From NCBI GenBank assembly GCA_020437725.1, contig JAGQWA010000001.1, positions 7,884-40,777 of the forward strand: a DNA stretch of 32,894 bases, written 5' to 3'. The position numbers and the translations under genes are program-made. A model generated the notes under the pieces. The model worked only from the letters and a program-made list of their open reading frames with translations, ran no database searches and had not been told where the DNA came from. This DNA is from Bacteroidota bacterium (GTDB lineage Bacteria; Bacteroidota; Bacteroidia; CAILMK01; JACPUW01). Every line of letters begins with the position of its first letter. Positions within the stretch are counted from its first letter, which is position 1. Of the stretch, positions 16,200-32,894 are shown piece after piece.

Positions 16200-17132
16200 A
16201 TGTCTATTATAGTTGAAAATCTGAGTAAACACTACGGCACCCAAAAAGCAGTAGATAATATCTCGTTTAAAGTGGAGTCTGGCCAGATTTTGGGATTCTT
16301 GGGCCCCAATGGTGCTGGTAAAACCACCACCATGAAAATGCTCACTTGCTACATTGCGCCTTCGGGAGGAAATGCTACCGTTTATGGCAAGTCAATTAAA
16401 AATGACCAAGAAGCCGTAAAAAAGAGCATCGGTTATTTGCCTGAGCATAACCCACTCTATTTAGACATGCCAGTTATTGAGTACCTAGAGTTCTCAGCGG
16501 CTATGCAAGGTGTGCCTAAATCGCAGATTAACCAGGCAGTAAAAAACATGCTAGTAACCTGTGGGTTAGGTGCAGAAAAACACAAGAACATTGGAGAGTT
16601 GTCAAAAGGATATCGTCAACGTGTTGGGCTGGCACAAGCCATGATCCACGATCCTGATGTGCTAATTCTAGATGAGCCCACCACGGGTTTAGACCCAAAC
16701 CAGATTATTGAAATCAGGAAACTGATTAAGGAAATAGGTCAAAAAAAGACCGTTATTTTCTCTACCCATATTTTGAGCGAGGTTGAAGCCACTTGCGATA
16801 GGGTAATGATAATAAACAAGGGCCGAATTATTGAAGACAGCACGCCAGAGCTAATTCGCAAAAAGGCAACTGGTGGTGAAGTGCTTCATATTACCATAGA
16901 AGATGCACCAAATGCAGATACAGTTATTCAGCAATTGAATACAGTGGCAACTGTTCAATCTGTTACTGAAAAGAAAGAGGCATCAAATGGTTTTGTGGTA
17001 GAAAGCAAACCAGAAGAATCATCTAGAAAAGCCGTATTTAAACAATGTGTGGCCAATAATTGGACACTTACCGAAATGCGAGTTGAAGAAACCAGCTTAG
17101 AAGACATATTTAGAACCTTAACACGCAACTAA
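16200..17132 (+). CDS. gldA: Gliding-motility ABC transporter ATP-binding protein GldA
   Basis: The 310-aa ATPase shows Walker A GPNGAGKTTT (about residues 36-45), a Q-loop in GYLPEHNPLY, signature LSKGYRQRVGLAQ, Walker B VLILDEPTTGLDP and the switch His in VIFSTHILSEVE. The C-terminal 90 residues form the extra domain seen in DrrA/CcmA-type ATPases. It is followed after 7 bp by gldF and then gldG, the arrangement that supports the name GldA. In Flavobacteriia GldA, GldF and GldG form an inner-membrane ABC complex required for gliding in some species. The cargo is not established. It is the first gene of the operon, with a plausible promoter at 16144-16173. Confidence 0.93.
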   Translation: MSIIVENLSKHYGTQKAVDNISFKVESGQILGFLGPNGAGKTTTMKMLTCYIAPSGGNATVYGKSIKNDQEAVKKSIGYLPEHNPLYLDMPVIEYLEFSAAMQGVPKSQINQAVKNMLVTCGLGAEKHKNIGELSKGYRQRVGLAQAMIHDPDVLILDEPTTGLDPNQIIEIRKLIKEIGQKKTVIFSTHILSEVEATCDRVMIINKGRIIEDSTPELIRKKATGGEVLHITIEDAPNADTVIQQLNTVATVQSVTEKKEASNGFVVESKPEESSRKAVFKQCVANNWTLTEMRVEETSLEDIFRTLTRN

Positions 17133-17139
17133 CTATAAC

Positions 17140-17865
17140 ATGAACAAGATTTGGATATTAACTAAGCGAGAGCTTAAAACCTTTTTCGACTCCCTTATTG
17201 CCTATGTGCTTTTGGGTTTGTTTTTGGGAGTTAGCGGCTATTTCGCTTGGCAAATGCAAGGCAATAATATTTTCGACAGAGGCGAAGCCAACCTTATGCC
17301 TTTCTTCGATATTGCCTTCTGGACGCTATTCTTCTTCATTCCATTATTAACCATGAGAATGCTTGCTGAAGAAAACAAAACCGGAACCATTGAACTATTG
17401 CTAACCAAGTCGGTTACCGATTGGCAGGTAATATTTGGCAAGTTCTTGTCGGTATTTATTCTAATTGCCATTGCACTTCTTCTAACAACACCCTACTATT
17501 ACACCATTGCTAAATACGGAGAAGTAGATCACGGAGTGGTTGTACTGGGTTACCTATCGTTGCTATTAATGAGTGGAGCATACACGGCTATTGGACTTTG
17601 GGTAAGTAGCATTACCAACAACCAAATTGTGGCGGGATTGCTAGCCTTGGTAATTGGCTTAATGTTTCATCTCATATTTGGTGTTATGGCAAGTTCATCA
17701 TCAGGAATGGTGGGCGATGTTTTGAGTTTTCTCGACATGAGGGGGCACTTTACATCAATGATTCGAGGCGTAGTAGATTCTACCGATTTGCTGTTTTATG
17801 GTTCAATCATTTTTATAGGTCTTGTTTTAGCAGAAAGCCAATTGGCCAAAAGACACATTGCTTAA
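17140..17865 (+). CDS. gldF: Gliding-motility ABC transporter permease GldF
   Basis: The 241-aa protein has six predicted membrane helices and the ABC-2 permease layout: an N-terminal KRELKTFFDSLIAYVLLGLF, the motif MRMLAEENKTGTIELLLTKS between helices 2 and 3 (typical of this permease family), and a final helix ending AESQLAKRHIA. It would form the membrane channel for GldA and GldG. The spacing is 7 bp after gldA and 12 bp before gldG. Family and order support the assignment strongly. Confidence 0.93.
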   Translation: MNKIWILTKRELKTFFDSLIAYVLLGLFLGVSGYFAWQMQGNNIFDRGEANLMPFFDIAFWTLFFFIPLLTMRMLAEENKTGTIELLLTKSVTDWQVIFGKFLSVFILIAIALLLTTPYYYTIAKYGEVDHGVVVLGYLSLLLMSGAYTAIGLWVSSITNNQIVAGLLALVIGLMFHLIFGVMASSSSGMVGDVLSFLDMRGHFTSMIRGVVDSTDLLFYGSIIFIGLVLAESQLAKRHIA

Positions 17866-17877
17866 AGAATTATTCCA

Positions 17878-19371
17878 ATGAAATTAAATACAGTTTATAC
17901 CCGACTTATTTTGATTATCGGAATTGTTCTGTTAATCAACTTTTTTGGTTCGCATTATGATTTTAGGATTGACCTAACTAGCGACCAACGATATACCCTA
18001 ACCGATGGCTCAAAACGTGTAATGGAAGCGCTTGACGACCCCGTTACCATAAAGGCCTATATCTCAGAAGATGTGAACACGCAGGTGGATAATTACGTTC
18101 GCGAGGTGCAAGCCATGCTTGATGAATATGTTGAGCTTTCAGATGGAAATCTCGATGTGGTTTACATAAATCCAAATGGCGACCCCGACCTTGAACAAGA
18201 AGCCGTTGAAAATGGGGTTCAACCTCAGCAATTACAATCAGCAAGCGAAGACGAGTTTAGCCTTAAAAAGCTATTTCTGGGTTTGGTTTTTGAGTATGGA
18301 AACGAAAAAGAACTGGTAATGCTAAACGGCAATACCAGCATGCTTGAGTATCAAGTTTCAAAAAGTATTAAGAAACTCACATTCGAAAACAAACCTAAAG
18401 TGGGCATTTTAGCAGGTCATGGCGAGTCAAGCATGGAACAATTGGCCGTTGTTAAAGACGAGCTATCAATTAATTATGAGCCTGTTGAAGTAAAGCTTGA
18501 CGGTGAAGGAAACCCACTAGATGGAGTAGATGCCTTAATGATTGTTGACCCGAAAGACTCGTTTAAAAGCCAGGAAATAAAAATGATTGATGCCTTTTTT
18601 GAGCAAGGAAAGGGTATTTTATTGGCTTATTCTAACAATACTGCCAATTTATTTACCGGACAAGGAATGGCAAACGACAAGGAAATTGGCCTAAGCTCAT
18701 GGTTGGCAACCCATGGTGTGGCGGTTGAATCTAATATGATTCAAGACGTGAGTGCCTTTAGGCAAAACGTATTTGCGCAGCCACTATTCTATTTTCCAAT
18801 GATTACCAATTTTGCCAACCATCCTATTTGCGAAGGTTTAGAGCAAGTAGGGTTGTTTTTAACCAACGAGGTAACCTATTCTGGAAACGACGGAACGTTT
18901 ACACCCATCATGTTCACTTCTGAACGTTCAGGAAAAGTGCCTTTTCCTACCGCGGTTCAAATGCAAAAGCAATGGTCTGATGCCGATTTTACCCTATCTA
19001 ATATTCCGGTGGCAGGAGCCTTGCAAAAGAACAATGGTGCTAAAATGGTGGTTGTTGGCTGTGGTGATTTCTTTTCGCTTCATGGCCAAGAAATGGCGCA
19101 GTTCGACCAACAATTCTTTTCTCAAACAAACAATTTTGCTTTTGTGCCAAATGCCATGGATTGGCTTACAGGCCAAAACGACCTACTAGTAGCCAGAAAC
19201 AAAGGCATAACCAACGCGCCACTCGATGAACTTGAAGACGATAAAGTTTCAAGAATTAAATACATGAACTTTTTGGGCCCTGTGTTTTTAGTGGGTTTAT
19301 ATGGCTTTTTGCGTAATAGGGCTAGAAAAGCCAAGCGCATTAAATGGCAAACAATGAATTTGGAAGGATAG
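17878..19371 (+). CDS. gldG: Gliding-motility ABC transporter auxiliary protein GldG
   Basis: The 497-aa protein has an N-terminal membrane anchor (about 9-25), a large periplasmic region and a C-terminal helix (about 462-480, LGPVFLVGLYGFLRNRARKAKR, basic and thus cytoplasmic at the end). DLTSDQRYTLTDGSKRVMEA and VTIKAYISEDV are characteristic of the GldG/ABC-type auxiliary family, and VGILAGHGE precedes the second half. It is moderately shorter than the GldG proteins I know (about 550 residues). It completes the GldAFG complex at the inner membrane. Confidence 0.92.
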   Translation: MKLNTVYTRLILIIGIVLLINFFGSHYDFRIDLTSDQRYTLTDGSKRVMEALDDPVTIKAYISEDVNTQVDNYVREVQAMLDEYVELSDGNLDVVYINPNGDPDLEQEAVENGVQPQQLQSASEDEFSLKKLFLGLVFEYGNEKELVMLNGNTSMLEYQVSKSIKKLTFENKPKVGILAGHGESSMEQLAVVKDELSINYEPVEVKLDGEGNPLDGVDALMIVDPKDSFKSQEIKMIDAFFEQGKGILLAYSNNTANLFTGQGMANDKEIGLSSWLATHGVAVESNMIQDVSAFRQNVFAQPLFYFPMITNFANHPICEGLEQVGLFLTNEVTYSGNDGTFTPIMFTSERSGKVPFPTAVQMQKQWSDADFTLSNIPVAGALQKNNGAKMVVVGCGDFFSLHGQEMAQFDQQFFSQTNNFAFVPNAMDWLTGQNDLLVARNKGITNAPLDELEDDKVSRIKYMNFLGPVFLVGLYGFLRNRARKAKRIKWQTMNLEG

Positions 19372-19413
19372 GCACTATATTTACCAATCTATTCGCTTAA
19401 AACTCTTGTGATT

Positions 19414-22400
19414 ATGAAGCATTTATACCTACTCTTACTGCTGGTAGTTCCTTTTTTAATATCAGCCCAACAACAGTCACTTCCTGGTTCTGCCGCAGCC
19501 TTAAGTTTTGCTAGTACCAGCTCAGAAGTAGTGGTAAAAGACCATTCATCGCTAAACCCAACAAAATCCATAACCGTAGAGGCTTGGATTTACCCAACAT
19601 CATTTGCTACCAATTCTTGGGAGAATACCATTTTTTGCAAACACAATTGGGACCGAGGAAATAAAGGATATGTTCTAAGGGTAGGCGATGGCGGAAAAAT
19701 TAGCTTCAACCTTTCGTTTGGTGGCACTTGGTACGAAGTGGTTACCCGACAATTATTAAGCACCTATGAGTGGGCACACGTTGCCGGTGTTTACAATGGC
19801 GACTCGATAATGGTTTATTTAAACGGTGAGTTGGTAGGCACAAGAACTCAAACAGGTAATATAGATGTGTCTAGTGGTGCACAGGCAAAAGTTGGTGCAC
19901 TTTCAACCGGAAAAGGAAGAAACTTTAGTGGAATAATTGATGAACTTAAAGTTTGGAATACAGATCTTTCAGACACTTTGATTCAGGATTACATGTGCCA
20001 AAAAATTGGAAACAGCCATCCTAAGAAAAACAACTTGGCGCTCTATTATAAAATGGATGATGGAACAGGCTCAACGGTAACCGACTATGGATTGGCTGGT
20101 TCTAACGGCGCCATTAACAATTGCAGCTGGGTTCTTTCTGGTGCGCCAATTGGCGATGCTTCTATTCATGCATTAAGAAACAGCAGACTTGGAATGGCAA
20201 GCAGTCTTGGAGATTCCGTTTATGTAAATAGAGTCGGTGGAAGCCCAGACAATTTATATTTATACTACATAGCAGATACTACTTGGGGCAACCCATCTTC
20301 GGGAATTTCAGCCGATTTTGATTCTAGCCATTACTGGGGTGTTTGGGCCGTAGGTGGAACTAGTCCAACCTTTAATATTCAATATCACTATGGCAATTAC
20401 AACCTTGTTACCAGCTCTAATGAGTGCGATATTGATTTTTTCACAAAGTCTGGAAACAATGACAGTACATGGGATGTGTTTTCTGCCAATGCAAATCTTG
20501 CAGGCGACAGTATTTCAAGATCAGGAACAAAACCAGGCGAATTTATTCTTGGTTTTTATGGAATAAACAAAGCCATTGGAACAAATACCGGCGATTCAAC
20601 AGCCTGTGTTGACGATAATCTAACACTTCTAGCGCCAGGAAATTCAACCTTTAAATACCAATGGTATAGAAATGGTAGTGCTATAACTAACGCCACCAAA
20701 TCTACTTATATAGCTAAGGTTTCTGGTAAATACAAGGTGTATGTTGAGCGCGACAAAAACTGCAATTACACCACAAAAGAGTTGAATGTAACAATCAACT
20801 CAAGTCCTTCAATTATATTCCCGCAACCATCGGCAATTTGCGAAAACATAAATCAATTATGGCTTACTGGTGCCCGCCCACTAGGCGGAACGTTTATAGG
20901 CAAGGGTTTGGTTAAAGACTCACTTTTCTCGCCTTCGTCAGTTTTGGCGGGTAGTTATAATATCAGATACGAGTACAAAGACAAGAAAGGTTGTGTGGGC
21001 AGAGATACAATAACAGTTGTTGTTAACGCGCTTCCAAATGTTCGCATTAAATCAACTCAAGGCATGTGCGATAACCTAGATTCTGTGGTATTAACAGAAG
21101 GTTTGCCTGCTGGCGGAACCTATTTTGGAACAGGCATTTATAGAAACCAATTCTTTCCTGATAGTTTGCCAAAAAGCAGTGGAATTTTCCCTATTTCATA
21201 CACCTACACAGATACAAACGGCTGTATGGATACAGCAAAAAACAACGTAAAAGTATTAGGCGCAACAACCTTAAGCGTTCCTGCACCCGATACCATTTGC
21301 GCCAATGCCGATAAATTGCGTTTAAGGGTAACTCCTTTTGGCGGAAAGTATAGTGGAAACGGTGTTAGCGGAAATTTCTTCGACCCTGCTGTTACAGGCA
21401 CAGGCACTTTCTATGCTCGTTATGAGTTTTATAACATTGACAATTGCTTAAGTGCAGACAGTCAAAAAATTACAGTGGTTGGTTTACCTACTGCTTCAGT
21501 TGCTGCAAACGACTCGGTTTGTATTAACGCCGATTCGGTGGCACTTTCATCGGGCATGCCAGCTGGCGGCGATTATATGGGTAACGGAATCTCTAATGGT
21601 TATTTCCACCCCACAATGGCAGGCAATGAAACTTACACTTATGTTTATGTTGACGGTAACGGTTGTTCAGATACCGCAACAGGTATTATGAAAACACTGG
21701 ACACGGCATTTTTAATGCTTGGAAGACTTTCAGGAGTTTGTCCAAATGAAATTCCTTATACACTTTCAGCCGTATCGCCAAATGGCGGAATTTATACTGG
21801 AAATGGAGTTAGCAATAATGTTTTCGACCCAGCAGCAGCTGGTTCAGGCATTCATAATATAGTTTATAACTATACCAACTCATCAGGTTGTTCATCTACC
21901 TTGCAATACACGCAACAAGTGTTTAATCTTGGCAAAGCAACTTTAGATTTAGGCAATGACTTGTGCGAAAACGCATCAGCGGTAAGTATTACCAATTTTT
22001 CACCAAGCGGTGGAGCGTTAAGCGGTCTAGGCATTTCGGGTTCAGATTTTGATCCCGCCTTGGCTGGTTCAGGAACACATACCATTACCTATACAGCCAA
22101 CGATTCAAATAGATGTGAAATTGAAGTAACCGATAATATTACGGTTAATGCTACACCAAGCATTTCATGGGTGGTAAGTAGCTCAGAGTGTGCCTACGAT
22201 ACCCTGTTGAGTATTGAAACTGCCACGCCAACAGGTGGTAATTACAAGGCTGGTGGTAGCTCATCATCAAACTATAACCCAAGCCTTTTTGTGGGAGCGG
22301 GTAAAGTAGATGTTAGTTACGGTTATACAGATGCCAATGGATGTTCGGCTCTTGAAGAGCGAACCATTGTAATTAACGCGCTTCCTGCCAAGCCAAGCAT

Positions 22401-22842
22401 TCAGGCCGATGATACAAAACTTACATCGAGTGCAACAACCGGTAACCAATGGTATAGTGTGAATGGAGCCATTTCTGGTGCTAATAGCCAAACCTATGTG
22501 CCAGGAAAAAAAGGCAGGTTCTATGTTGAAGTAACCAATGATTCTGGTTGTGTTTCAAAGTCAGATTGGGTGCAGTTTGAAAACCTTTCTACTGGAAACC
22601 GCACTAACTCATTTTTAGAAGTTTTCCCTAACCCAACCTCAAACGTTTTCACGATTTCAGGCCTAGGTCATTTTGAAAACGCGACTATTACTGTTTCTAC
22701 ATTAGATGGAAGAATAGTTGAAACTATTACCACCGAACATGATCAATTACTTATTGACGCAACTAGCTGGAATAATGGCGTTTACCTAATTTCAGTTCAA
22801 TCTATAAATGCGTTAGAACAATACAAGATTGTTAAACACTAA
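19414..22842 (+). CDS. Large T9SS-exported protein with LamG domain and seven GGxYxGxG repeats
   Basis: The product is 1142 aa from ATG 19414; an in-frame GTG two codons earlier is less likely. A signal peptide (MKHLYLLLLLVVPFLISAQ) is followed by a LamG/concanavalin-like domain (about 30-240, with ITVEAWIYPTSF and WAHVAGVYNGDS). A less clear stretch (about 250-390) and an Ig-like unit (WYRNGSAI) come next, then seven repeats of about 75 residues and a second Ig-like unit (QWYSVNGAI). The C-terminus (LEVFPNPTSNVFTISGLG onward, ending YKIVKH) is a T9SS type A sorting domain, so the protein is predicted to be secreted through the outer membrane and attached or released. It is probably an adhesin or matrix component; there is no catalytic motif. 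It lies inside the gldAFG-DUF4340 gene row. Confidence 0.9.
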   Translation: MKHLYLLLLLVVPFLISAQQQSLPGSAAALSFASTSSEVVVKDHSSLNPTKSITVEAWIYPTSFATNSWENTIFCKHNWDRGNKGYVLRVGDGGKISFNLSFGGTWYEVVTRQLLSTYEWAHVAGVYNGDSIMVYLNGELVGTRTQTGNIDVSSGAQAKVGALSTGKGRNFSGIIDELKVWNTDLSDTLIQDYMCQKIGNSHPKKNNLALYYKMDDGTGSTVTDYGLAGSNGAINNCSWVLSGAPIGDASIHALRNSRLGMASSLGDSVYVNRVGGSPDNLYLYYIADTTWGNPSSGISADFDSSHYWGVWAVGGTSPTFNIQYHYGNYNLVTSSNECDIDFFTKSGNNDSTWDVFSANANLAGDSISRSGTKPGEFILGFYGINKAIGTNTGDSTACVDDNLTLLAPGNSTFKYQWYRNGSAITNATKSTYIAKVSGKYKVYVERDKNCNYTTKELNVTINSSPSIIFPQPSAICENINQLWLTGARPLGGTFIGKGLVKDSLFSPSSVLAGSYNIRYEYKDKKGCVGRDTITVVVNALPNVRIKSTQGMCDNLDSVVLTEGLPAGGTYFGTGIYRNQFFPDSLPKSSGIFPISYTYTDTNGCMDTAKNNVKVLGATTLSVPAPDTICANADKLRLRVTPFGGKYSGNGVSGNFFDPAVTGTGTFYARYEFYNIDNCLSADSQKITVVGLPTASVAANDSVCINADSVALSSGMPAGGDYMGNGISNGYFHPTMAGNETYTYVYVDGNGCSDTATGIMKTLDTAFLMLGRLSGVCPNEIPYTLSAVSPNGGIYTGNGVSNNVFDPAAAGSGIHNIVYNYTNSSGCSSTLQYTQQVFNLGKATLDLGNDLCENASAVSITNFSPSGGALSGLGISGSDFDPALAGSGTHTITYTANDSNRCEIEVTDNITVNATPSISWVVSSSECAYDTLLSIETATPTGGNYKAGGSSSSNYNPSLFVGAGKVDVSYGYTDANGCSALEERTIVINALPAKPSIQADDTKLTSSATTGNQWYSVNGAISGANSQTYVPGKKGRFYVEVTNDSGCVSKSDWVQFENLSTGNRTNSFLEVFPNPTSNVFTISGLGHFENATITVSTLDGRIVETITTEHDQLLIDATSWNNGVYLISVQSINALEQYKIVKH
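20820..22378 (+). repeat. Seven in-frame repeats of about 75 codons
   Basis: Each unit has an early Cys, a core of the type P-x-GG-x-Y-x-G-x-G-(V/I) and FxPxxAGxGxxxIxYxYxDxNGC. The GG cores begin near 20884, 21112, 21341, 21564, 21783, 22010 and 22233, a period of 219-229 bp. The protein pattern is conserved but the DNA is not identical, so this is old duplication rather than recent expansion. The last unit (GGNYKAGGSS) is the most divergent. Confidence 0.8.
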
Positions 22843-22862
22843 AAACTGGTTTTTACTAAGCA

Positions 22863-23855
22863 ATGCTTAACAAATTCAACACCAAAACCCTACTTGTTAT
22901 TTTAGTACTTCTGGTTGCTGGGGCAGCTATCAAATTTTTATCAGATTCGGGTGAAACAAAAAGTACACTACCCGATTATTTGGTGGAAGTTGATACCAAT
23001 GGAGTTACCAAATTAACCTTTCAACCCAAAGGCAAAACACCCTATAATTTGGTGCGAAACGATGGTAAATGGAAGCTTGAATTAGCCAATGGCAAGTTAG
23101 TGCCTATAGTAAGCAGCCGACTTACCAGTGTTTTAATGGCTATAAATTCAATGAAACCTAAAAAGAAGGTTACTGATAAGCCAGAAAAATGGAGCAAGTA
23201 TGAAGTTGACGACACCACCGGCACAAAAGTTTTAGCGTATGCTGGCGAAGAGGAAGTAGCATCTCTAGTGGTGGGAAAAATCAACATTTTGCAAATGCCA
23301 CAACAGCAACAGGGTATGCAGCAAATGCAAATGGGCGGTCAGCAACCAAAGTTTGGAACCTACATCAGATTAGGCGGCGGCAACGAAGTATATGAAATTG
23401 ACGGAGCACTTACCTGGGATGTGAGCAAAGCCGCTTCTGATTGGCGAAATACCGATATCATCAAGTTTTCGCAATACCAATTGAGCAAGCTAGAAACGCG
23501 TGGCCCTATTTCCTTAACGCTAGAGAAAGACACCACCAACAATTGGAATGCCAATGGCGCCGATTTAGACAGTGCCCAAATGGCCAATTACATTAGTGGT
23601 ATAATGGGAATATCTTCAAAGGAATTCAATGATGCTATTGAAGAAATTAGTGATGCGCCCAAAGTTGAAATCTACCTAACCGATAAAGATGGCGCTAGCA
23701 GTAAGCTTATGGCATACCAACAAGACGGTGATTATGTGCTACAATCAAGTGACGTGCAAGGGTCTTATTTCAAAATAACCCAACAAGATTTTGACAAGCT
23801 AATTCCGCCAGTTACTGCACTCGAGAGTTTGGAAGAAGCGCCAGTTAATCCGTAG
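22863..23855 (+). CDS. DUF4340 domain protein
   Basis: The 330-aa protein has an N-terminal membrane anchor (about residues 8-26, TLLVILVLLVAGAAIKFL) followed by a periplasmic domain. The pattern VTKLTFQPKGKTPYNLVRND and GKWKLELANGKLVPIVSSRL is typical of DUF4340, which is often encoded next to GldG-like ABC auxiliary genes. A Gln/Met-rich patch at about 140-160 (MPQQQQGMQQMQMGGQQ) is a low-complexity insert. It likely works with GldAFG at the inner membrane, although its gene is separated from gldG by the large exported protein. The start is 20 bp after that gene's stop. The operon ends here, before a strong hairpin. Confidence 0.85.
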   Translation: MLNKFNTKTLLVILVLLVAGAAIKFLSDSGETKSTLPDYLVEVDTNGVTKLTFQPKGKTPYNLVRNDGKWKLELANGKLVPIVSSRLTSVLMAINSMKPKKKVTDKPEKWSKYEVDDTTGTKVLAYAGEEEVASLVVGKINILQMPQQQQGMQQMQMGGQQPKFGTYIRLGGGNEVYEIDGALTWDVSKAASDWRNTDIIKFSQYQLSKLETRGPISLTLEKDTTNNWNANGADLDSAQMANYISGIMGISSKEFNDAIEEISDAPKVEIYLTDKDGASSKLMAYQQDGDYVLQSSDVQGSYFKITQQDFDKLIPPVTALESLEEAPVNP

Positions 23856-24113: not shown

Positions 24114-26150
24114 CTAAATATTCATCAATTCATTCAACCAATAATCTTTCTTTTCAGAATAAGCTTGCTTGGCAAATAGAGTCCAGAATTGGTGGTTTTG
24201 TAAGAAGCTTATTTGCTGCGAATGCCATTCAGCATCAGTAATGCTAAGGCCATTGGCCCTTAGTTCTGAGATGAGCCTTCCAGAGATTTCAAAATATTGG
24301 TCTCCACCAAAATAGGCCAGGTCGGAATCGCAAAGTATTTGGCCCAAATGCGTAGTTGGCGTTTGCGGAATCTTGGTAGCCATGATCATTTTCTTTATTT
24401 CGGCCAGCTCGTTTTCATTAAAACCAAAGCTTGGCAATGTAGCATCTGCTATTTGGCAAGAAAGCGCTTCGTGGTTTTGGGTTTTGATCATAAAACCAGC
24501 ATCGTGATAAGCAGCGCCAATATGTAGCAATTCCATTTCAGCATCGCTAATCTTTTCGTTTTGGCCAATATGCAGGGCGTTTTCTATTACTTGCTTGGTG
24601 TGTTGGGCCGAATGGTAATGAAGAGAATCAGGCAATTCATTTTGCAGTCTATTCAAGATATAGTCAACCGCCGCTTTGGTTCTTTTGCTATTGGGTTGTT
24701 TTACCAAATACATGGTCATGTTTCCCTTGCCTTTTACTTGTATTTCTTCTCGTTTTTCGAACCCAAAATCGGTGTTTTTTAGCAATTCTTGTGTGGTAGA
24801 AGAAATATTCAACTCACCCACCAAGCCATTGCTTTCCATTCTACTAGCGGTGTTTACACTATCTCCCCATATATCAAACTGAAACTTGTTTAGACCCACA
24901 ACGCCCGCTACAACTGGCCCTGAGTGAATACCAGCTCGCATTTCAAAACCCAGCTTTCCGTTTTGCTCATTCTTCAATTTTCTAAGCTTCAAAAACAGAA
25001 TCATTTCTAAGGCAGTGTTGGCCAAGATTTCTGCATTTTTGGCGGCATCATCATTCTCATTGCCACCATCAGAAACACCAACAGCAGCCATGTATGCATC
25101 GCCAATCGTTTTAATTTTCTCAACTCCATTTCGAGCACAAATTTCATCAAAGCCTTTAAAAATGGCATTCAATTCTTCAACCAATTCAGTTGGAGTCATG
25201 GTTGACGAAGCAGCTGTAAAGCCCTTAAAGTCAGTAAAAAGTATCGAAGCATTTTTAAACTCTCGTGCTTGCGCCTTGCCGTGGGTTTTTAGCTCTTCGG
25301 CCACGGTTTGCGGTAAAATATTGAGCAGAAGCTTTTCGCTTTTGTCTTTTTCTTCATCAAGAAGGGCATATACCTTTGCGTTGTCAAGCGCTACTTCCAG
25401 ATAAGAAGCTAATGAGAAAATAAAGTCTAAATGGTGCTGTTGAAAAGCGTTTTCATTAGCCCCAAAAATTACCAAAACGCCATTTACTTTCTGCTGGCTA
25501 ATTAAAGGAACGGCCACTACTGATTGCGCTTTTGCGCCATTGGAAGTAACAATTGGCCTTTGCACAAATTGATGATAATCTTTATCTGCATTTTGAATAA
25601 TGGCAGGTTTTCCATTGCCAAAAACCCATTTAACCAATTCAGTTTCAGCCTTTGCAGAAATGTCGTTTATGCTATTTCCTTGAGCAATTGAATAAGCCTG
25701 CAAGGCACCGCGTTCGGTGTAAACCAAATTCATTTCTGAAGTGCTCATGCTCGACTGCACATAGTTGAAAATGGTAACTAGCACTTGCTCCAATTCTAAG
25801 CTGCCGGTTATGCGTTGCCCCACTTCGGTAAGCAGCGAAATCTGAGATGCATTTGTTTCTAGGTCCCGGAGTTTTTCTCTGTACAGTTCTACTTCACCCG
25901 CCCTTTTTTCTAGGTTTCTGTTGGTTTCTAGAACCGTATTATAGGCTTCAATTAATTGGTTGAAGTAATTTCCAATTTCAGATAAGTTTTCATTTCTATC
26001 GAATTGAACCACGCGTGGTGGCTGAGATTCTGTGCTTGAACGCAGTTTGGTTTTTAGCTCTTCAATGCGCTTTTTTAGCACCGAAAATTGCCCAAAAGCA
26101 AAAACAAACGCTACTAAAAACAAAAAAGCGACAATAAGGGCTAACTCCAT
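24114..26150 (-). CDS. Membrane-anchored GAF-adenylate cyclase-HD domain protein
   Basis: The 678-aa protein has an N-terminal helix (about 3-20), a coiled coil (about 22-100), a GAF domain (about 105-260), a class III nucleotide cyclase domain (about 295-485) and a C-terminal HD domain (about 505-665). The cyclase keeps both metal Asp residues (FTDFKGFT, D307; IKTIGDAYM, D351), Lys347 and Asp426 (FDIWGD) that choose adenine, and the Asn433/Arg437 pair in NTASRM, so it should make cAMP. The HD domain keeps the His and His-Asp (HSAQHTKQV, AAYHDAGF) and a later Asp in LCDSDLAYFG, so it could hydrolyse a nucleotide. One chain may thus make and remove a signal, with the GAF domain as sensor. It diverges from the NTPase gene across 59 bp. 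The HD substrate is inferred, not shown. Confidence 0.92.
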   Translation of the reverse strand: MELALIVAFLFLVAFVFAFGQFSVLKKRIEELKTKLRSSTESQPPRVVQFDRNENLSEIGNYFNQLIEAYNTVLETNRNLEKRAGEVELYREKLRDLETNASQISLLTEVGQRITGSLELEQVLVTIFNYVQSSMSTSEMNLVYTERGALQAYSIAQGNSINDISAKAETELVKWVFGNGKPAIIQNADKDYHQFVQRPIVTSNGAKAQSVVAVPLISQQKVNGVLVIFGANENAFQQHHLDFIFSLASYLEVALDNAKVYALLDEEKDKSEKLLLNILPQTVAEELKTHGKAQAREFKNASILFTDFKGFTAASSTMTPTELVEELNAIFKGFDEICARNGVEKIKTIGDAYMAAVGVSDGGNENDDAAKNAEILANTALEMILFLKLRKLKNEQNGKLGFEMRAGIHSGPVVAGVVGLNKFQFDIWGDSVNTASRMESNGLVGELNISSTTQELLKNTDFGFEKREEIQVKGKGNMTMYLVKQPNSKRTKAAVDYILNRLQNELPDSLHYHSAQHTKQVIENALHIGQNEKISDAEMELLHIGAAYHDAGFMIKTQNHEALSCQIADATLPSFGFNENELAEIKKMIMATKIPQTPTTHLGQILCDSDLAYFGGDQYFEISGRLISELRANGLSITDAEWHSQQISFLQNHQFWTLFAKQAYSEKKDYWLNELMNI

Positions 26151-26179
26151 TTATGCTTCAGATATGATTATGCTAAATT

Positions 26180-26202
26180 AGCCCAATTCTATCCATTGGG
26201 CT
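26180..26202. promoter_or_regulatory. Perfect inverted repeat in the divergent control region
   Basis: AGCCCAAT (26180-26187), 7 nt, then ATTGGGCT (26195-26202) occupies the middle of the 59-bp gap between the cyclase and NTPase genes. Its dyad symmetry and place make it a candidate operator for both genes; alternatively it forms a leader hairpin just before the GTG at 26210. Confidence 0.4.
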
Positions 26203-26209
26203 ATAGGTT

Positions 26210-29176
26210 GTGAATTTACCAAATCCATTTTCAGGGCTAAAGGCATTTGATGCCAACAAAAGCGAGCTGTTTTTTGGGCGGAATCGGCACGTGCAAGAGA
26301 TTGTAAATAAGCTAGATAGTCATCATTTTGTAGCGGTTGTTGGAAACAGCGGAAGCGGAAAATCATCTCTTGTAAAAGCCGGTGTAATACCAAGGCTTCA
26401 AAAAATCAAGGGGTTTGAAATTATTTCTATGCGGCCAGGAAACAATTCACTAAACGCATTAGTGAGTGCTTTGGGTTTGGGAAAAGAAGCAATTGGCACA
26501 TTGCAAGAAACTGAACGCGGACTCTTAAAACTGGCACGATCAAAAGGAAATTCAGCCAACAAAATACTGTTGGTTGTTGATCAGTTCGAAGAAATTTTTA
26601 GGGCCGATTTGGCTGGTAACCTAAACATTGAAGATTCTGAGCAGTTCATTGCCAATTTGCTTTGTGCCATTTCCGAAAACGATTCGCCTGTATATGTAAT
26701 GCTCACCATGCGTTCTGATTATTTAGGCGATTGCGAACAATTTGAAGGTTTGCCCGAAGCCATTAACAATGGCCAGTTTTTGGTTCCGCGAATGCGAAAA
26801 GAAGAACTGCGCGAGAGCATAGTTGGCCCAGTGAATGTGGCAGGTGGTAAAATTTCGCCGCGTTTGGTGCATCAATTACTCACCGAAGTTGATGGCAAGC
26901 CAGATGAGCTACCTGTATTGCAGCATTTGTTAATGCGCATGTGGCAATTGTGGGGTAAAGATGAGCAGCATGATCCCATAGACATGCAGCATTATCAAGC
27001 GGCTGGCGGTATGCAAAACGCGTTGTCTAATCATGCTGAGTTGGTTTATGAGAGTATGTCTGCAAATGAGCAGCAAAATTTGGCTAAAGTTTTAAAGGTT
27101 ATTGGTTACCGCACTGCCGACAATAAGATGGTGCGCAGACCAGCAACCATTGATCAACTTTCCGCAATTACGGGTTTGTCAAAACCTGAAATTGAAAAGG
27201 CTACCGCACCTTTTCGAAGCGCAGAAAACGGCTTTTTATTGCCAGATCTGGGCGAAGAGCTTGGAAACGAAACCATGATTGACATTACTCATGAAAGTTT
27301 CATTAGACAATGGAAACGTTATAAAACATGGGTAAACGAAGAGTATCAGTCTGCCGAATTGTATCAACGTTTAACTGAAAGCGCGCTTTTGTTTGAGCAA
27401 GGCAGAGCGGGTTATTGGCGTAATCCAGATTTGCGTTTGGCGGTTGAATGGCGACAAAGAGAGCAGCCTAATGAGCGATGGGCAGGTTTGTACAATACCC
27501 ATTTTCAATCTTCAATAACTTTTTTGAATGAAAGTGAGAGAGATTATAAGTTTTACCTGGCCGATAGAAGAAGGCGACGACGAGTAATTGCCGCGGTTTT
27601 AATTTTATTCTTGGTGGCCTTGAGCACTTTAAGCGTTTGGGCACTTTCTGAAAGCAGTAGGGCAAAATCGAATGCTGACTTGGCGTTTAAACAGAAAGAA
27701 GCCGCTGTGGCTTTACAAAAGCTGGCTGAGCAAGAAACCGCAAGGGCCGAAGAGGCACTAGATAGCGTTAAAGCCGAAAAGAAAAGAGTTGGCCTTCAAA
27801 TTGAAAAAACCAAAGAGCAACGCAATTTGGCTGAATACAACGCCAAAAGAGCGGAGCTACAGAGGCGCTTGGCCGAGCTTTCAAAAGAAGAAGCTTTAAC
27901 GGCTTTTCAACTGGCAGAGAAAAGACAAGCCGAAGCAGAATTGCAGAAAAATCTGGCTACACAACAATTCTTACGTGCCGATTCTGCCCAACGCGAATCT
28001 AAGCGGATGCAAGAGCTCACCTTGGCCAAAAACTTAGCCATTAAATCAAACCTATTAGTGGCTGAAAATGACAAGCAGCGGAGAACAAAAGCGCTATTGG
28101 CCATGCATGCAGCCAACATGCAAGTAACTAATAAGGGATTAATACAAGAGCCAGATATTTATACCGCCCTGCACAACGCCTATTTGGCATCAGTTAATCT
28201 AAACTCAAACTACAGTTCGCATGTGGCTGATGTAAAATCGGTAGCCACTTCAATATATAATGGCAGCCAATACTTAATTACTTCGGCAAGCGATAAGCAG
28301 TTAATTATTAAAGATTTAACCAAAGGAGTTCAATCAAGTATTCAAGCAGAAAGCATCGTTTACCAAATAAGCACCGCTAAAGAGCAAGAACATCTGGCAT
28401 GTGCTTCATCCAATTCAATTGCTGTTTACAGCCTAACCACAAAAGAGCGGGTTTGGGCTTTAAAAAATGCTACTCCATCACAAATAACCGGCTTACATAT
28501 TAGTGGCAATGAACTGATTTATTGTCTATCAAATGGTGATGTAACATGGTACAATTGGAAAGATGATAAGGTAGTTCGCAACCTTAATACAAAGCATACC
28601 AATCAATGCTTGGCAGTTGATGGAAATAGCGTTTTGGTTGGAACCAAAGAAGGTTCGGTATTATCAGTTAGCAGCGAAAACACGAGCCTTACAACACTTG
28701 CCAAAAGGAGCAATGGAATTACGGCCATTGCTGTAAATGCAAGTAGCAAAAACTACATGTTTGCAGAGGAATCTAGCCAAGCCTATTTGGGGTCATTTCA
28801 AAATGAAATGATAACTGAATTGGCTGGTCACCGAGGCAACATTTCTGATGTGGCCATTTCTACAAACGCCAATTGGGTAGCAACTGCCTGTTTTGATGGT
28901 GATGTTCGTATTTGGAATTTGAAAGATGGCCTTACTGTTCCAATAGTTTATAGCAGGCATAACAACTGGGTTAGAAGTATAGCCTTTGCAAATAATGGCA
29001 ATTCGTTGTTTTCGGCCGGAAAAGACCAAAATGTGTTCAGGTTTGAACTCGATGCAAATGAGCTATGGAAAGAGCTTTCGGCGTATAAAGAACAAGATTT
29101 TTCAAAATCTGAATGGAAGGAACATGCTGGAGAAGGGGTGGGGCAGAAAGTGTTGCCAAAGCTCTTAAATCCATAG
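26210..29176 (+). CDS. Transmembrane nSTAND NTPase with coiled coil and WD40 propeller
   Basis: The 988-aa protein starts at GTG 26210. The opening NPFSGLKAFDANKSELFFGR is the entry motif of the nSTAND1 NTPase family, followed by Walker A GNSGSGKSS (45-53), Walker B ILLVVDQFEEIF (119-130) and the sensor region YVMLTMRSDYLGD (162-174). STAND proteins are ATP-driven signalling switches. One membrane helix lies at about 459-480, directly after six Arg (453-458). A long Ala/Glu/Lys coiled coil spans about 485-605, and WD40-like blades cover about 665-955, the clearest being GHRGNISDV...DVRIWNL (873-903). By the positive-inside rule the NTPase is cytoplasmic and the coiled coil and propeller are periplasmic. 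Two tandem outer-membrane-type genes follow 55 bp and more downstream. Bacteroidota copies are sometimes annotated as Hat/HatR; that name says nothing about the function here. Confidence 0.9.
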   Translation: MNLPNPFSGLKAFDANKSELFFGRNRHVQEIVNKLDSHHFVAVVGNSGSGKSSLVKAGVIPRLQKIKGFEIISMRPGNNSLNALVSALGLGKEAIGTLQETERGLLKLARSKGNSANKILLVVDQFEEIFRADLAGNLNIEDSEQFIANLLCAISENDSPVYVMLTMRSDYLGDCEQFEGLPEAINNGQFLVPRMRKEELRESIVGPVNVAGGKISPRLVHQLLTEVDGKPDELPVLQHLLMRMWQLWGKDEQHDPIDMQHYQAAGGMQNALSNHAELVYESMSANEQQNLAKVLKVIGYRTADNKMVRRPATIDQLSAITGLSKPEIEKATAPFRSAENGFLLPDLGEELGNETMIDITHESFIRQWKRYKTWVNEEYQSAELYQRLTESALLFEQGRAGYWRNPDLRLAVEWRQREQPNERWAGLYNTHFQSSITFLNESERDYKFYLADRRRRRRVIAAVLILFLVALSTLSVWALSESSRAKSNADLAFKQKEAAVALQKLAEQETARAEEALDSVKAEKKRVGLQIEKTKEQRNLAEYNAKRAELQRRLAELSKEEALTAFQLAEKRQAEAELQKNLATQQFLRADSAQRESKRMQELTLAKNLAIKSNLLVAENDKQRRTKALLAMHAANMQVTNKGLIQEPDIYTALHNAYLASVNLNSNYSSHVADVKSVATSIYNGSQYLITSASDKQLIIKDLTKGVQSSIQAESIVYQISTAKEQEHLACASSNSIAVYSLTTKERVWALKNATPSQITGLHISGNELIYCLSNGDVTWYNWKDDKVVRNLNTKHTNQCLAVDGNSVLVGTKEGSVLSVSSENTSLTTLAKRSNGITAIAVNASSKNYMFAEESSQAYLGSFQNEMITELAGHRGNISDVAISTNANWVATACFDGDVRIWNLKDGLTVPIVYSRHNNWVRSIAFANNGNSLFSAGKDQNVFRFELDANELWKELSAYKEQDFSKSEWKEHAGEGVGQKVLPKLLNP

Positions 29177-29198
29177 AACTGAACTTTAAAAGTGCTTA

Positions 29199-29212
29199 TA
29201 TTGCTTGCAATA
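29199..29212. repeat. Short palindrome between NTPase and first barrel gene
   Basis: TATTGC, TT, GCAATA: a perfect 6-bp inverted repeat with a 2-nt centre, in the 55-bp gap, 20 bp before ATG 29232. It could be a binding site, or chance. Confidence 0.3.
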
Positions 29213-29231
29213 AAGGTTTTAAAATTTGGAA

Positions 29232-30251
29232 ATGGTTCATTTCATCAGAAGCGTGTTTCTTGTCATTTTAGTTGGGAGTGCGGGGCAGATTTCAGCCCAA
29301 GGCAACAACTGTGCAGTCTATATTAATGAGGCAACTGCGAAGTATAACAATGGGCAAATTTCGCAGAGTTTGGCAACCGCCAAAAAATGTAAAAGCAACA
29401 ACCACAACGATGTTTTTGCCAAGCAAAGAATTATGGCACTATGCCATTTGGCTTTAAACCAAAATGATAGTGCGCGAAAAGCTGCGTTGGTTATCATGGA
29501 ACTTAACCCAAGGTACAAGCCAAGCGTTTTAAGAAACCCCGAAGAGTTTATTCAGCTTATTGAGAGCATTAACATTATTCCAAAGGTTTCTCTGCGCCTT
29601 TCTCTTTCGGTGGGAGCCAATAGATCGTTATTAGATGTTACAGGTGTGTATATGATAAACGATCAGGTAAAAACATATTCTGGCCTTGGAGCAACTCAAC
29701 TTAGCATTTCTGGGCAATACCAACTAAGTAGGCTTTTTGCTATTCAAACTGGAGTAAGAGTAGCACCAAAAAGGTTTGATCTTAACTCGAAATTTAATGA
29801 GCTGAACGTTGACATTACAGAGTCGCTCACCTATGGCCAAATGCCATTAGTGCTTCAATTCTCGCCTTATACTAAAGGTAGAGTTAAACCCATGCTTTCA
29901 ATAGGTGGTTATGGAGCCTATTTATTATCGGCAACAAATAGTTTTAATGCTACCAGCAACATAAGTGATGACGCTTATGGACTTTTAAATATTAGCAGCT
30001 ACGAGCGCAGAAATAAGTGGGATTACGGCCTTGCCGCAGGTGCAGGCTTGTTGGTAAAACTAGGAGAAGGCCAACTGGTGATAGAAGTAGATTATTTTAA
30101 ATCTTACACTAACATTACCAATACGGCATTGCGGTATAGCTTTCCTGAGCTGCTAAACCCGTATTATCATTTAGATGATGATGTTACCATTAGTACCATC
30201 AACTTTAATATTGGCTACCAATTCTTCTTAAACTACAAAGTGCTTAAGTAA
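29232..30251 (+). CDS. Outer-membrane protein: TPR-like periplasmic N-domain plus beta-barrel (copy 1)
   Basis: The 339-aa product starts at ATG 29232; a TTG two codons earlier in frame is less likely. A signal peptide ends near ISAQ (residue 23). Residues about 27-110 are helical, TPR-like repeats, with Cys27 and Cys53, GQISQSLATA, ALCHLAL and the turn NPRYKPSVLRNPEEFIQLI. Residues about 120-339 show barrel strands (LSLSVGANRSLL, AIQTGVRVAP, MLSIGGYGAYLL, NIGYQFFLNYK). It is a paralogue of the next gene, with which it shares a 1-nt TAATG overlap and the 26-residue Cys spacing. It is likely an outer-membrane barrel with its N-domain in the periplasm. No substrate can be inferred. Confidence 0.82.
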   Translation: MVHFIRSVFLVILVGSAGQISAQGNNCAVYINEATAKYNNGQISQSLATAKKCKSNNHNDVFAKQRIMALCHLALNQNDSARKAALVIMELNPRYKPSVLRNPEEFIQLIESINIIPKVSLRLSLSVGANRSLLDVTGVYMINDQVKTYSGLGATQLSISGQYQLSRLFAIQTGVRVAPKRFDLNSKFNELNVDITESLTYGQMPLVLQFSPYTKGRVKPMLSIGGYGAYLLSATNSFNATSNISDDAYGLLNISSYERRNKWDYGLAAGAGLLVKLGEGQLVIEVDYFKSYTNITNTALRYSFPELLNPYYHLDDDVTISTINFNIGYQFFLNYKVLK

Positions 30252-31270
30252 TGAAAAGACTAATTATCACCTTATTAGTTTATGCGGTTTTTTATGTTAA
30301 AGCACAAGATTGCAGCAACTCTCTCTATAAGGCCGAAATTGCTTTTGAGCAAGGCAGAATCCAAGAAGCAATTGATATTCTAGAGCCATGTTCCAAAAAG
30401 CAAGGAAACACTGAAAAATCATTAGAAAGTGCCAAGCTTTTGGCATTGGCCTATTTGGCAAAAAACAATCAAGAAAAAGCTGGGTACTATGCCAAAGAAA
30501 TGCTTCAGATATTCCCAAGATATAAGGAATTTCCAAACAATGATCCACCCGAGTTAACTGAATTATTGACCGCATATATCGCAGCTGCTAAGCTGCATGT
30601 GGGTGGCTATTTTTCATCAGGTATAACTAACGTAAATTTGGTTAACAGCTATTCGGCATTAAGGGTGCCACAAGCTTATTATCAAACACCATACTTTAAT
30701 GCGGGCGGCTTTTTGGAGTTTCCGGTTAATAGACATTTTACCGTTTGTGTTAACGCTGGAGCTTCAGGAACAACCGTAACGCACTACATGAAAAGTGATT
30801 ATGAGTGGGATAAAACCTATACCAATCAATTGAGATTTACCGGTTTTGGCGCTGGTTTAAACTATAAGTTACTTTTTGGTGAAAGCGGCATTTTGACTTT
30901 TGGACCTATAGTGAATTATCATCGAATTTCAACTGCCAATATGCAAGTGCTAACGCAGAATGGTTTTACCGCCACACGCGAAATTGTGGCACAAGATGGA
31001 TTACCGTTTTTAAACAAATCTCAATTGGCAGTAGGTTGTAGGTTAGGGGTAGAAAAAAACCTAACTCGTGGTAGAGTGGGTGTAATGTTAAAATACACAA
31101 GCTTTTTGAATCTTATTAATAACCCAGACCAACGCTATAGCGACATGGATTTTGTGTTTGAGTCAGCCTATATTTTAGACGATGTTAAATTGGGTTTTTG
31201 GGGAATAAGCTTACAGTATTCGCTACCGGTTCTCTATAAAATTGAAAACGCCACTCAACTAATTAATTAG
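30251..31270 (+). CDS. Outer-membrane protein: TPR-like periplasmic N-domain plus beta-barrel (copy 2)
   Basis: The 339-aa product has a short signal peptide (to about residue 18, FYVKA). It has the same plan as the gene before it: a Cys pair at 21 and 47 (again 26 apart), TPR-like helices (KAEIAFEQGRIQEAIDILEP, LALAYLAKNNQEKAGYY), the turn FPRYKEFPNNDPPELTELL, and a barrel from about residue 115 (HVGGYFSSGITNVNL, FGAGLNYKLLFG, WGISLQYSLPVLYK). The start shares one base with the previous stop, so the pair is cotranscribed, probably with the NTPase. The end overlaps the convergent histidine kinase gene by 8 bp. The sequences are divergent, so this is an old duplication, and the two may form a hetero-pair. 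Confidence 0.82.
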   Translation: MKRLIITLLVYAVFYVKAQDCSNSLYKAEIAFEQGRIQEAIDILEPCSKKQGNTEKSLESAKLLALAYLAKNNQEKAGYYAKEMLQIFPRYKEFPNNDPPELTELLTAYIAAAKLHVGGYFSSGITNVNLVNSYSALRVPQAYYQTPYFNAGGFLEFPVNRHFTVCVNAGASGTTVTHYMKSDYEWDKTYTNQLRFTGFGAGLNYKLLFGESGILTFGPIVNYHRISTANMQVLTQNGFTATREIVAQDGLPFLNKSQLAVGCRLGVEKNLTRGRVGVMLKYTSFLNLINNPDQRYSDMDFVFESAYILDDVKLGFWGISLQYSLPVLYKIENATQLIN

Positions 31271-32225
31271 GCAATTCAATTGTAAAAGTAGTGCCTTTGT
31301 TAGGCTCGCTTTGCACTTCTATTTCGCCACCTAGTTTTTTAACAAACTCATAAGTCATGGGTAGGCCAAAACCAAAGCCCACTTCGTTTTGAGTTCCATT
31401 ATGAGAAGTATTTGTGTGGCTTTTAAAAATGCGCGCTACCTGTTCTGGCTCCATGCCCACTCCATTATCTGAACATTTGAGTCTAATTAGGCCATTTTTT
31501 TCTGCAATGTCTATTTGAATGTGTCCGCCAGTTTCACTGAATTTTAGTGCATTATTTAACAAGTTTCGGGCAATAAATGATAGCTCGTTTTTGCCATTTC
31601 TGGTTAAAATAGTGTTGTTCTGGTTGAGGGTTATTTCAATGGATTTTTGTGCAGCAATGGGTTCAAGCAACTTAATTTCTTCTTCTAAAATTTGGTTTAG
31701 GTTTACCGGCTCATGCAAAGAGTTGTATGTTGGTTTTTCTGCGCTTTTGGCCCATAAAAGCAAATCGTCAACTGCCCTTAAAGTTGACTCGCCATGTTGG
31801 GTCATTTTGGCTAGAATTTCTAATTCGCGCGTGCCTTCCGCTTTTTCATCTAGCAATAATGTTCCATAAGAAATTAGGCTGCTAATGGGCGATCTAATAT
31901 CGTGTGCAACAATTGATAACATTTGGGTTCTAAGTTGATTGGCGGCTATTAGCTGTTCGTTTGTTTGTTCTAAATCTTGTTGAGCTTGTTTCAGTTTAAG
32001 ATTTATGTTAAACAATTGGCCGCCAATTAAATAGCTCAATGTTGCTGCCATTGTGCCAGAAAGTACAAACCCAATATATCCGTCTAAACCAGCTGAAAAG
32101 TGAATAATGATGTATATGAGTTCAGAGAGTATTGTTGCGCCTATTACAATACTTAATTTAGATGTAAAAATGGAGTTAACAGTTTTGCTTAGATACGCGC
32201 CCCTGTCCTTTTTAGTCAAACCCAA
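31263..32225 (-). CDS. Sensor histidine kinase with two membrane helices
   Basis: The product is about 320 aa. The start is uncertain: TTG 32225 is used here, TTG 32219 also fits, and there is no upstream ATG. Two helices (about 24-43 and 50-70) are joined by a very short loop, so there is no real periplasmic sensor. A coiled linker (about 75-98) leads to the HisKA domain, whose H-box is MLSIVAHDIRSPISSL (His108). The ATPase part shows NLLNNALKFS (N-box, about 221-230), CSDNGVGM (G1) and GFGFGLPM plus GTTFTIEL (G2 and end). It is complete and likely active. No response regulator is adjacent, so it is an orphan within this window. It probably senses an intramembrane or protein-borne signal. 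Confidence 0.9.
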   Translation of the reverse strand: MGLTKKDRGAYLSKTVNSIFTSKLSIVIGATILSELIYIIIHFSAGLDGYIGFVLSGTMAATLSYLIGGQLFNINLKLKQAQQDLEQTNEQLIAANQLRTQMLSIVAHDIRSPISSLISYGTLLLDEKAEGTRELEILAKMTQHGESTLRAVDDLLLWAKSAEKPTYNSLHEPVNLNQILEEEIKLLEPIAAQKSIEITLNQNNTILTRNGKNELSFIARNLLNNALKFSETGGHIQIDIAEKNGLIRLKCSDNGVGMEPEQVARIFKSHTNTSHNGTQNEVGFGFGLPMTYEFVKKLGGEIEVQSEPNKGTTFTIELPN

Positions 32226-32430: not shown

Positions 32431-32894
32431 TTACTGAGCCGCCTTTAGCAGAATGGTAAAAGAAGTACCTACCCCTAAATCACTTTTGCACGAAATAGAA
32501 CCTTTCATTTTTAAAATGAAATCATGGCATTGAACCAAGCCTAAACCCGTGCCCCTTTCTTGGTTGGTGCCAGGTTTTGATTTTATATCGGGTTGAAAAA
32601 GTTTTGACTTGGTTTCATTGTCCATTCCAACCCCATAATCAATAATTTGAATGATTTTAGAATGGCCGCTTGAAGAAGCTAATATTTGCACTTTACCGCC
32701 TTGATGAGAAAATTTTACCGCATTCACAATAAGGTTTTTTATGGCAAGCTTTAGCATATTAGAGTCGGCTAGTACAGTAAAATCATCAGGGCAGTTTATT
32801 TCAATTTCAATGTTTTTGGCTTGCAGAACTACACTTAGATCAGAAACAATAAGTTGTATAACAGTGGCCACAAGAACTGGATTAAGAGCGCCGC
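32431..32894 (-). CDS. Histidine kinase C-terminal ATPase domain (cut by right edge)
   Basis: The frame stays open to the right edge (reading GALNPVLV before the first possible internal GTG), so this is the last ~154 residues of a longer gene. It shows the HATPase_c order: LAIKNLIVNAVKFSHQGG (N-box), IIDYGVGMD (G1), a loop with LFQPDIKSKPGTNQ, GTGLGLVQCHDFI (G2) and GVGTSFTILLKAA at the end. The phosphoacceptor His and any sensor domains lie outside the window. It ends without a receiver domain. It has the same direction as the kinase at 31263-32225 and 205 bp lie between them. Confidence 0.88.
   Translation of the reverse strand, partial: GALNPVLVATVIQLIVSDLSVVLQAKNIEIEINCPDDFTVLADSNMLKLAIKNLIVNAVKFSHQGGKVQILASSSGHSKIIQIIDYGVGMDNETKSKLFQPDIKSKPGTNQERGTGLGLVQCHDFILKMKGSISCKSDLGVGTSFTILLKAAQ

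Follow-up and report, generated by a model that had tools for sequence, protein, structure and literature searches.

The window analysed here, a stretch of 32,894 nucleotides from a Bacteroidota genome of 687 contigs (G000:C111:7884-40777), carries at positions 24114-31270 four genes that we read, with a probability of about 0.6, as a trans-envelope signalling cassette. Its core is a membrane-spanning STAND protein with a C-terminal WD40 propeller, encoded together with two TPR-barrel proteins, TB1 and TB2, and such a cassette would probably carry news of the cell surface to the interior. An open reading frame (ORF) check placed a cyclase gene on the minus strand, divergent from STAND, TB1 and TB2, which all lie on the plus strand. 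The same layout had been given in an earlier sequence-only reading of the locus, in which a GAF-cyclase-HD gene stood opposite an nSTAND-transmembrane (TM)-coiled coil-WD40 gene followed by two exported proteins. The start codons of the cyclase and STAND genes are 59 bp apart, STAND and TB1 are separated by 49 bp, and TB1 and TB2 overlap by one base (TAATG), the TB2 start overlapping the TB1 stop. No terminator-like site was found in the STAND-TB1 and TB1-TB2 gaps.

Profiles of STAND and TB were run against 395 Bacteroidia genomes, with a full-length TB defined as a match over both the TPR and barrel parts at E<=1e-40. Of 46 full-length TB genes, 32 had a STAND gene no more than 10 kb away, compared to 0.33 expected by random placement, which rules out chance neighbours. 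STAND was present in 26 of the 27 TB-bearing genomes (Fisher 9e-24, ignoring shared ancestry), and adjacent STAND/TB pairs occurred in about 13 families of Bacteroidia. TB was the next downstream gene on the same strand in 26/40 STAND loci examined, with gaps of -59 to +180 bp, many of them -4; in G202 and G308:C246 the contig runs out first. In G349, G133 and G192, STAND and the TB pair share one array with lipoproteins between them or to one side. The sequence-only reading had asked for such a gene-neighbourhood survey and named random neighbourhoods as evidence against a linked system. Overall these were not seen, but three relatives hold STAND and the TB pair at different loci. Collectively, these results support the STAND-WD40 protein and the TPR-barrels as a conserved unit. 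In a STAND tree the window grouped with G295, G048, G349, G133 and G192 (99/99 support), the lineages with a GAF-cyclase beside STAND. Since its search pattern matched the P-loop, a wider contig scan returned mostly distant nSTAND1 proteins, with one named full cassette (L059, Cytophagales) and the others serving as controls without TB. Sampling the whole phylum brought up no lineage that had not already been found within the class.

In two genomes, G308 and G246, the gene directly downstream of STAND encodes a TonB-dependent receptor (868/872 aa) that carries the TPR domain. The TPR part of the TB profile, used alone, matched residues 8-117 of these receptors. At the level of sequence, this exchange of the receptor part with retention of the periplasmic TPR part reads as the strongest clue to the mechanism. 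In the FecA-FecR-FecI system, the periplasmic N-terminal domain of an outer-membrane barrel talks to an inner-membrane protein with a periplasmic reading domain. The cassette resembles FecARI in its layout of barrel plus periplasmic domain and in its TonB-dependent receptor versions, but has TPR in place of STN, a STAND NTPase in place of the anti-sigma factor and a cyclase, kinase or phosphatase in place of the sigma factor. Pfam scans of the four genes found neither an STN domain on a TonB-dependent receptor nor a FecR or sigma factor, and at most the locus would act in a FecARI-like manner.

TB1 (29226-30251, plus strand) and TB2 (30251-31270, plus strand) were assigned as TPR-barrel proteins with signal peptides from their ORFs, Pfam and the family profile, together with AlphaFold for TB1 and a tree for TB2. 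TB1 is listed from a TTG at 29226, although an ATG at 29232 is the more likely start. Its TPR-like helical domain, predicted to be periplasmic and containing Cys29 and Cys55, lies at 29310-29570 (AlphaFold, family alignment) and is followed at 29583-30230 by a predicted outer-membrane β-barrel, PF13568 (Pfam OMP_b-brl_2, E=1e-11; AlphaFold). The AlphaFold model of TB1, predicted from three sequences only, has five helices in residues 29-115 (predicted local distance difference test score, pLDDT, mostly 74-92) and then strands. No Pfam TPR match was obtained in TB1, and that in TB2 was below threshold. A single family profile spans TB1 and TB2 end to end. The proposal of two paralogues with a TPR-like region before a barrel is upheld by the shared profile and the modelled helices and strands, while the TPR assignment itself is weak in Pfam. 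C29 and C55 (TB1 numbering) are conserved across the family, consistent with a periplasmic disulfide. In the TB tree, the proteins of the window's clade fall into two types, TB1 and TB2, and at least one of each is present in G005, G006, G048, G133, G192, G198, G295, G349 and the window. The two proteins thus belong to separate orthologous groups kept as pairs, indicating an ancient pair and no recent duplication. PorP and SprF, outer-membrane proteins of the type IX secretion system (T9SS), were also considered as identities for TB1 and TB2 and were rejected, since there was no NCBIfam match to either.

The STAND gene (26210-29176, plus strand; Pfam, hydropathy, AlphaFold, Foldseek) encodes 988 aa. 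Its nSTAND1 NTPase domain spans residues 6-397 (26225-27400; E=2e-92, 310.9 bits against a cut-off of 27.1), with a Walker A motif, GNSGSGKSS, at 45 and a Walker B motif, LLVVDQFEE, at 120. A single TM at residues 459-477 (27584-27640) is preceded by six Arg, and hydropathy and flanking charge predict an N-in/C-out orientation. Beyond it lies a long, presumably periplasmic coiled coil (about 480-640; 27647-28129), recognised by heptad repeats and in the AlphaFold model, with an Ala every 7 residues that is conserved in the family. As modelled, the helical arm after the TM, roughly 140 residues, could extend to about 20 nm (0.15 nm per residue), enough to near the outer membrane. The WD40 propeller (about 675-946; 28232-29047) was supported by Pfam, AlphaFold and Foldseek and provides the C-terminal superstructure-forming repeats that constitute the sensor platform of nSTAND1 STANDs. 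Mean pLDDT was 78; most of the NTPase scored around 90 and most of the propeller 80-90, with lower values for the coiled coil. The best Foldseek match of the model was Apaf-1, a likeness of architecture.

Nearly all Bacteroidia STANDs examined have a single TM separating the NTPase from the propeller, flanked by 5-10 Lys/Arg on the NTPase side compared to 1-5 beyond, with one exception of 3 versus 1. In the sister STANDs of L101, L103 and L104, a LysM domain lies C-terminal of the propeller (E 6e-14 to 3e-16); LysM is a peptidoglycan-binding module. Given the flanking charges and the LysM position, the propeller is most likely in the periplasm. The sequence-only reading had placed it there, and no cytoplasmic propeller was met with. 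Cys depletion was tried as evidence of topology and failed, as the WD40 region is not Cys-poor. These LysM proteins are DUF4062/TIR-like-nSTAND1-TM-WD40-LysM fusions of about 1500 aa (L101:5959-10545, L103:5609-10195, L104:987-5501), a wall-contacting version of the design. PorE (PG1058) of type IX secretion is an outer-membrane lipoprotein with periplasmic WD40, TPR and OmpA-type domains and no NTPase. It shows that WD40 and TPR domains occur in the periplasm of Bacteroidota and differs from the cassette STAND, which has an NTPase.

The divergent gene (24114-26150, minus strand) encodes a 678-aa protein with a GAF, a class III nucleotidyl cyclase and an HD domain (Pfam, hydropathy and Protein Data Bank matches to adenylate cyclases). 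An N-terminal TM at residues 1-19 (26094-26150; hydropathy), absent from the earlier description, would anchor it in the membrane. The GAF domain spans residues 118-256 (25383-25799; Pfam E=1e-13) and the cyclase domain residues 295-484 (24699-25268; Pfam Guanylate_cyc E=1e-56). The cyclase motifs are intact: the metal Asp of FTDFKGF (305-) and IGDAYMA, the Lys in EKIKTIGD, the Asp in FDIWGD and the Asn/Arg in NTASR. Aligned with mammalian adenylate cyclases, it therefore has the two metal Asp, the Lys/Asp substrate pair and the Asn/Arg transition-state pair of class III adenylate cyclases. The HD domain (residues 515-609; 24324-24608), with the motif YHDAGF, was below the Pfam cut-off but matched the solved HD hydrolase 2pq7 and is a candidate phosphodiesterase. 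In relatives HD has a gene of its own, and its fusion in the window ties it to the cyclase.

Besides the class III cyclase at this locus, the window's genome encodes one more (two in all), together with five cyclic nucleotide (cNMP)-binding proteins that, from their sequences, could be readers of cyclic AMP (cAMP). G048, G133, G192, G295 and G349 have 3-12 cyclases each, and in each the best match, and the only one spanning TM, GAF and cyclase, is the neighbour of STAND. With the window included, the STAND-adjacent cyclase was thus the best and sole near full-length match in 6/6 genomes (2-12 cyclases each), and these genes occur in three arrangements (divergent, upstream and downstream). In G005, G006 and G252, the TM-GAF part at the STAND locus sits on a histidine kinase, so that the window's TM-GAF part recurs in relatives on both the cyclases and the histidine kinases beside STAND. 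A TM-GAF protein at the STAND locus, whether cyclase or kinase, indicates that in the window's clade the GAF protein is part of the cassette, with an output domain that is exchangeable. The GAF-cyclase had been proposed as a component of the locus, and for this clade that was borne out. At the STAND locus of most other lineages a class III cyclase is missing. cAMP as a universal output was rejected, as G025, which has the cassette, and G006 lack any class III cyclase. In G349, proteins of about 840 aa whose paired GAF domains are related to that of the cyclase are encoded in tandem on contigs C69 and C29.

Elsewhere, the partners at STAND loci include TIR_2/DUF4062 proteins, SpoIIE phosphatases, a CHAT protein (adjoining a split STAND in L095) and a TLC-HEAT-cNMP membrane protein. 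The last is about 1050 aa, with TLC ATP/ADP-transporter-like, HEAT and cNMP-binding (sub-threshold) domains, and is encoded upstream of the STAND cassette at L050:3228-6416, with equivalents in L047, L049, L051, L057, L058, L059 and also G025. Pairs of propeller-like lipoproteins of ~400 aa with no Pfam family (L033:3763-6312, L034:3045-7987, L036:13233-15711, L107:9236-11823) accompany the TB pair even where STAND is elsewhere; in the window's genome this partner gave weak, partial matches only. At L102:9862-13266, a 1134-aa protein without a Pfam match, by eye like contractile-injection baseplate proteins, is encoded immediately upstream of a STAND that precedes a TonB-dependent receptor.

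These arrangements suggest how the proposed cassette may work. TB1 and TB2 would be barrels in the outer membrane with their TPR domains in the periplasm, and STAND would span the inner membrane: the NTPase would face the cytoplasm, and the coiled coil and propeller would reach through the periplasm towards the outer membrane. On the model of Apaf-1, the propeller would keep STAND inactive, probably by contacting the TPR domains, for as long as the state of the outer-membrane pair is unchanged. Once released, the NTPase could exchange nucleotide and oligomerise, passing the signal inwards. The cytoplasmic output would vary by lineage: in the window, the membrane GAF-adenylate cyclase and its own candidate HD phosphodiesterase may shape a pulse of cAMP as the message, and elsewhere the output may be a GAF histidine kinase, a SpoIIE phosphatase, or a TIR-like/DUF4062 or CHAT protein. 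A wider generalisation, to which we give about even odds, is an 'envelope apoptosome' in which an inner-membrane-spanning STAND reads the state of the outer membrane through a periplasmic propeller, with exchangeable receptors (TPR-barrel, TPR-TonB receptor, LysM-wall contact) and outputs (cyclase, kinase, phosphatase, TIR-like).

The Apaf-1 and TEP1-NWD1 switches are similar in architecture to the window's protein, a STAND NTPase being followed by a helical region and a WD40 propeller, and the DUF4062-NACHT-WD40 order of TEP1/NWD1 (PMC13174449) resembles that of the sister DUF4062-nSTAND1-WD40 proteins. Unlike the Apaf-1-type proteins, however, the window's protein has a TM that would leave the NTPase on one side of the inner membrane and the propeller on the other. 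Its NTPase belongs to another clade, nSTAND1, and its ligand, as proposed here, would be a TPR protein of the outer membrane. Several observations weigh against the signalling cassette. The resemblance to Apaf-1 comes with 12% identity and a poor global superposition, the overall confidence of the TB1 model is low (pLDDT 61), and up to 10 Cys in the WD40 region are odd for a periplasmic domain. The co-occurrence statistics take no account of shared ancestry. G005, G006 and G295 have STAND without TB nearby and TB pairs at other loci, and G179 has no TB within reach of STAND. G025 carries the cassette with no class III cyclase anywhere in its genome. nSTAND1-TM-WD40 proteins also occur in phyla lacking TB and in monoderm bacteria, suggesting that STAND can work without TB.

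The main rival to the signalling cassette, which we consider unlikely, is an envelope-facing immune or self-destruct system, in which the outer-membrane pair senses attack (e.g. phage adsorption or a contact-dependent weapon) and STAND fires an effector, the cyclase here replacing a TIR-like or CHAT effector. STANDs and WD40, TIR and CHAT domains are typical of bacterial conflict systems (Kaur et al., eLife 2021, PMC8195603). The nSTAND1 domain is common to both, and sister lineages have effector-type partners (TIR-like, CHAT). DUF4062 is reported to be a TIR-like NADase family in anti-phage defence that also occurs in TEP1 beside NACHT-WD40 (PMC13174449), which makes defence the main rival. 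Several lineages have a DUF4062/TIR-like gene adjoining STAND, and in L101, L103 and L104 the two are fused. In contrast, no outer-membrane partner was found in the sections of PMC8195603 consulted, and the window has no effector-associated domain: TIR-like/DUF4062 or CHAT proteins accompany STAND in other lineages, and the window has a cyclase only. The GAF histidine kinases, SpoIIE phosphatases, TLC-HEAT-cNMP protein, propeller lipoproteins and secreted giants have the look of regulatory or surface proteins, and the presumed catalytic Glu is, by eye, often lost in the TIR-like partners. PADLOC detected no defence component except a distant class III cyclase match (E=3e-13), on which the cyclase was considered as PycC of Pycsar and rejected, the Pfam Guanylate_cyc match being far stronger. 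It shares the class III cyclase domain with PycC but differs in its membrane GAF and HD parts and its adenylate-type residues, and no Pycsar effector adjoins it here.

Flow in the outward direction appears improbable. STAND would then spend cytoplasmic ATP while its periplasmic arm assembles, gates or energises the outer-membrane pair, perhaps so that nearby lipoproteins or large secreted proteins can be displayed. In many loci TB is indeed followed by lipoproteins about 400 aa long and by giant Ig/fn3/PKD proteins, with T9SS tails on some neighbours, and a TonB-dependent receptor takes the place of TB in two lineages. The window, however, has no such lipoprotein or giant beside TB, no hallmarks of a motor or secretion ATPase were seen, TB has no T9SS family match in NCBIfam, and STANDs are switches rather than pumps. 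Least probable, and very much so, is that cyclase and STAND/TB are unrelated neighbours and the unit is STAND-TB alone. The cyclase is divergent and not co-transcribed, and most STAND-TB loci elsewhere lack one. Against this stand the six genomes, from several families, in which the sole TM-GAF-cyclase orthologue lies beside STAND in three arrangements, and the three more with a TM-GAF kinase there.

No published account of the STAND-TB cassette was found in the open-licence literature (nSTAND, STAND ATPase, WD40, outer membrane, periplasm). STAND switches are known as cytoplasmic guards, and a widespread STAND with a periplasmic sensor paired with outer-membrane receptors would, if true, be a further trans-envelope route beside two-component systems, FecARI-type signalling and stress-protease cascades. 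Bacteroidota is a phylum of great ecological weight, and modular exchange of receptors and outputs would give direct, testable predictions.

On the minus strand beyond the cassette, the window has two histidine kinase genes (31263-32225 and 32431-32892), the first of which shares 8 bases with the 3' end of TB2 in tail-to-tail orientation. On the other side, at 16200-23855, genes of ABC ATPase, permease and GldG-like type are followed by one for a LamG/Ig protein of 1144 aa that bears a type IX secretion tail and one for a DUF4340 protein. Pfam was run for the LamG/Ig and DUF4340 proteins only; the region resembles a gliding-type ABC transporter cluster into which a secreted protein has been inserted.
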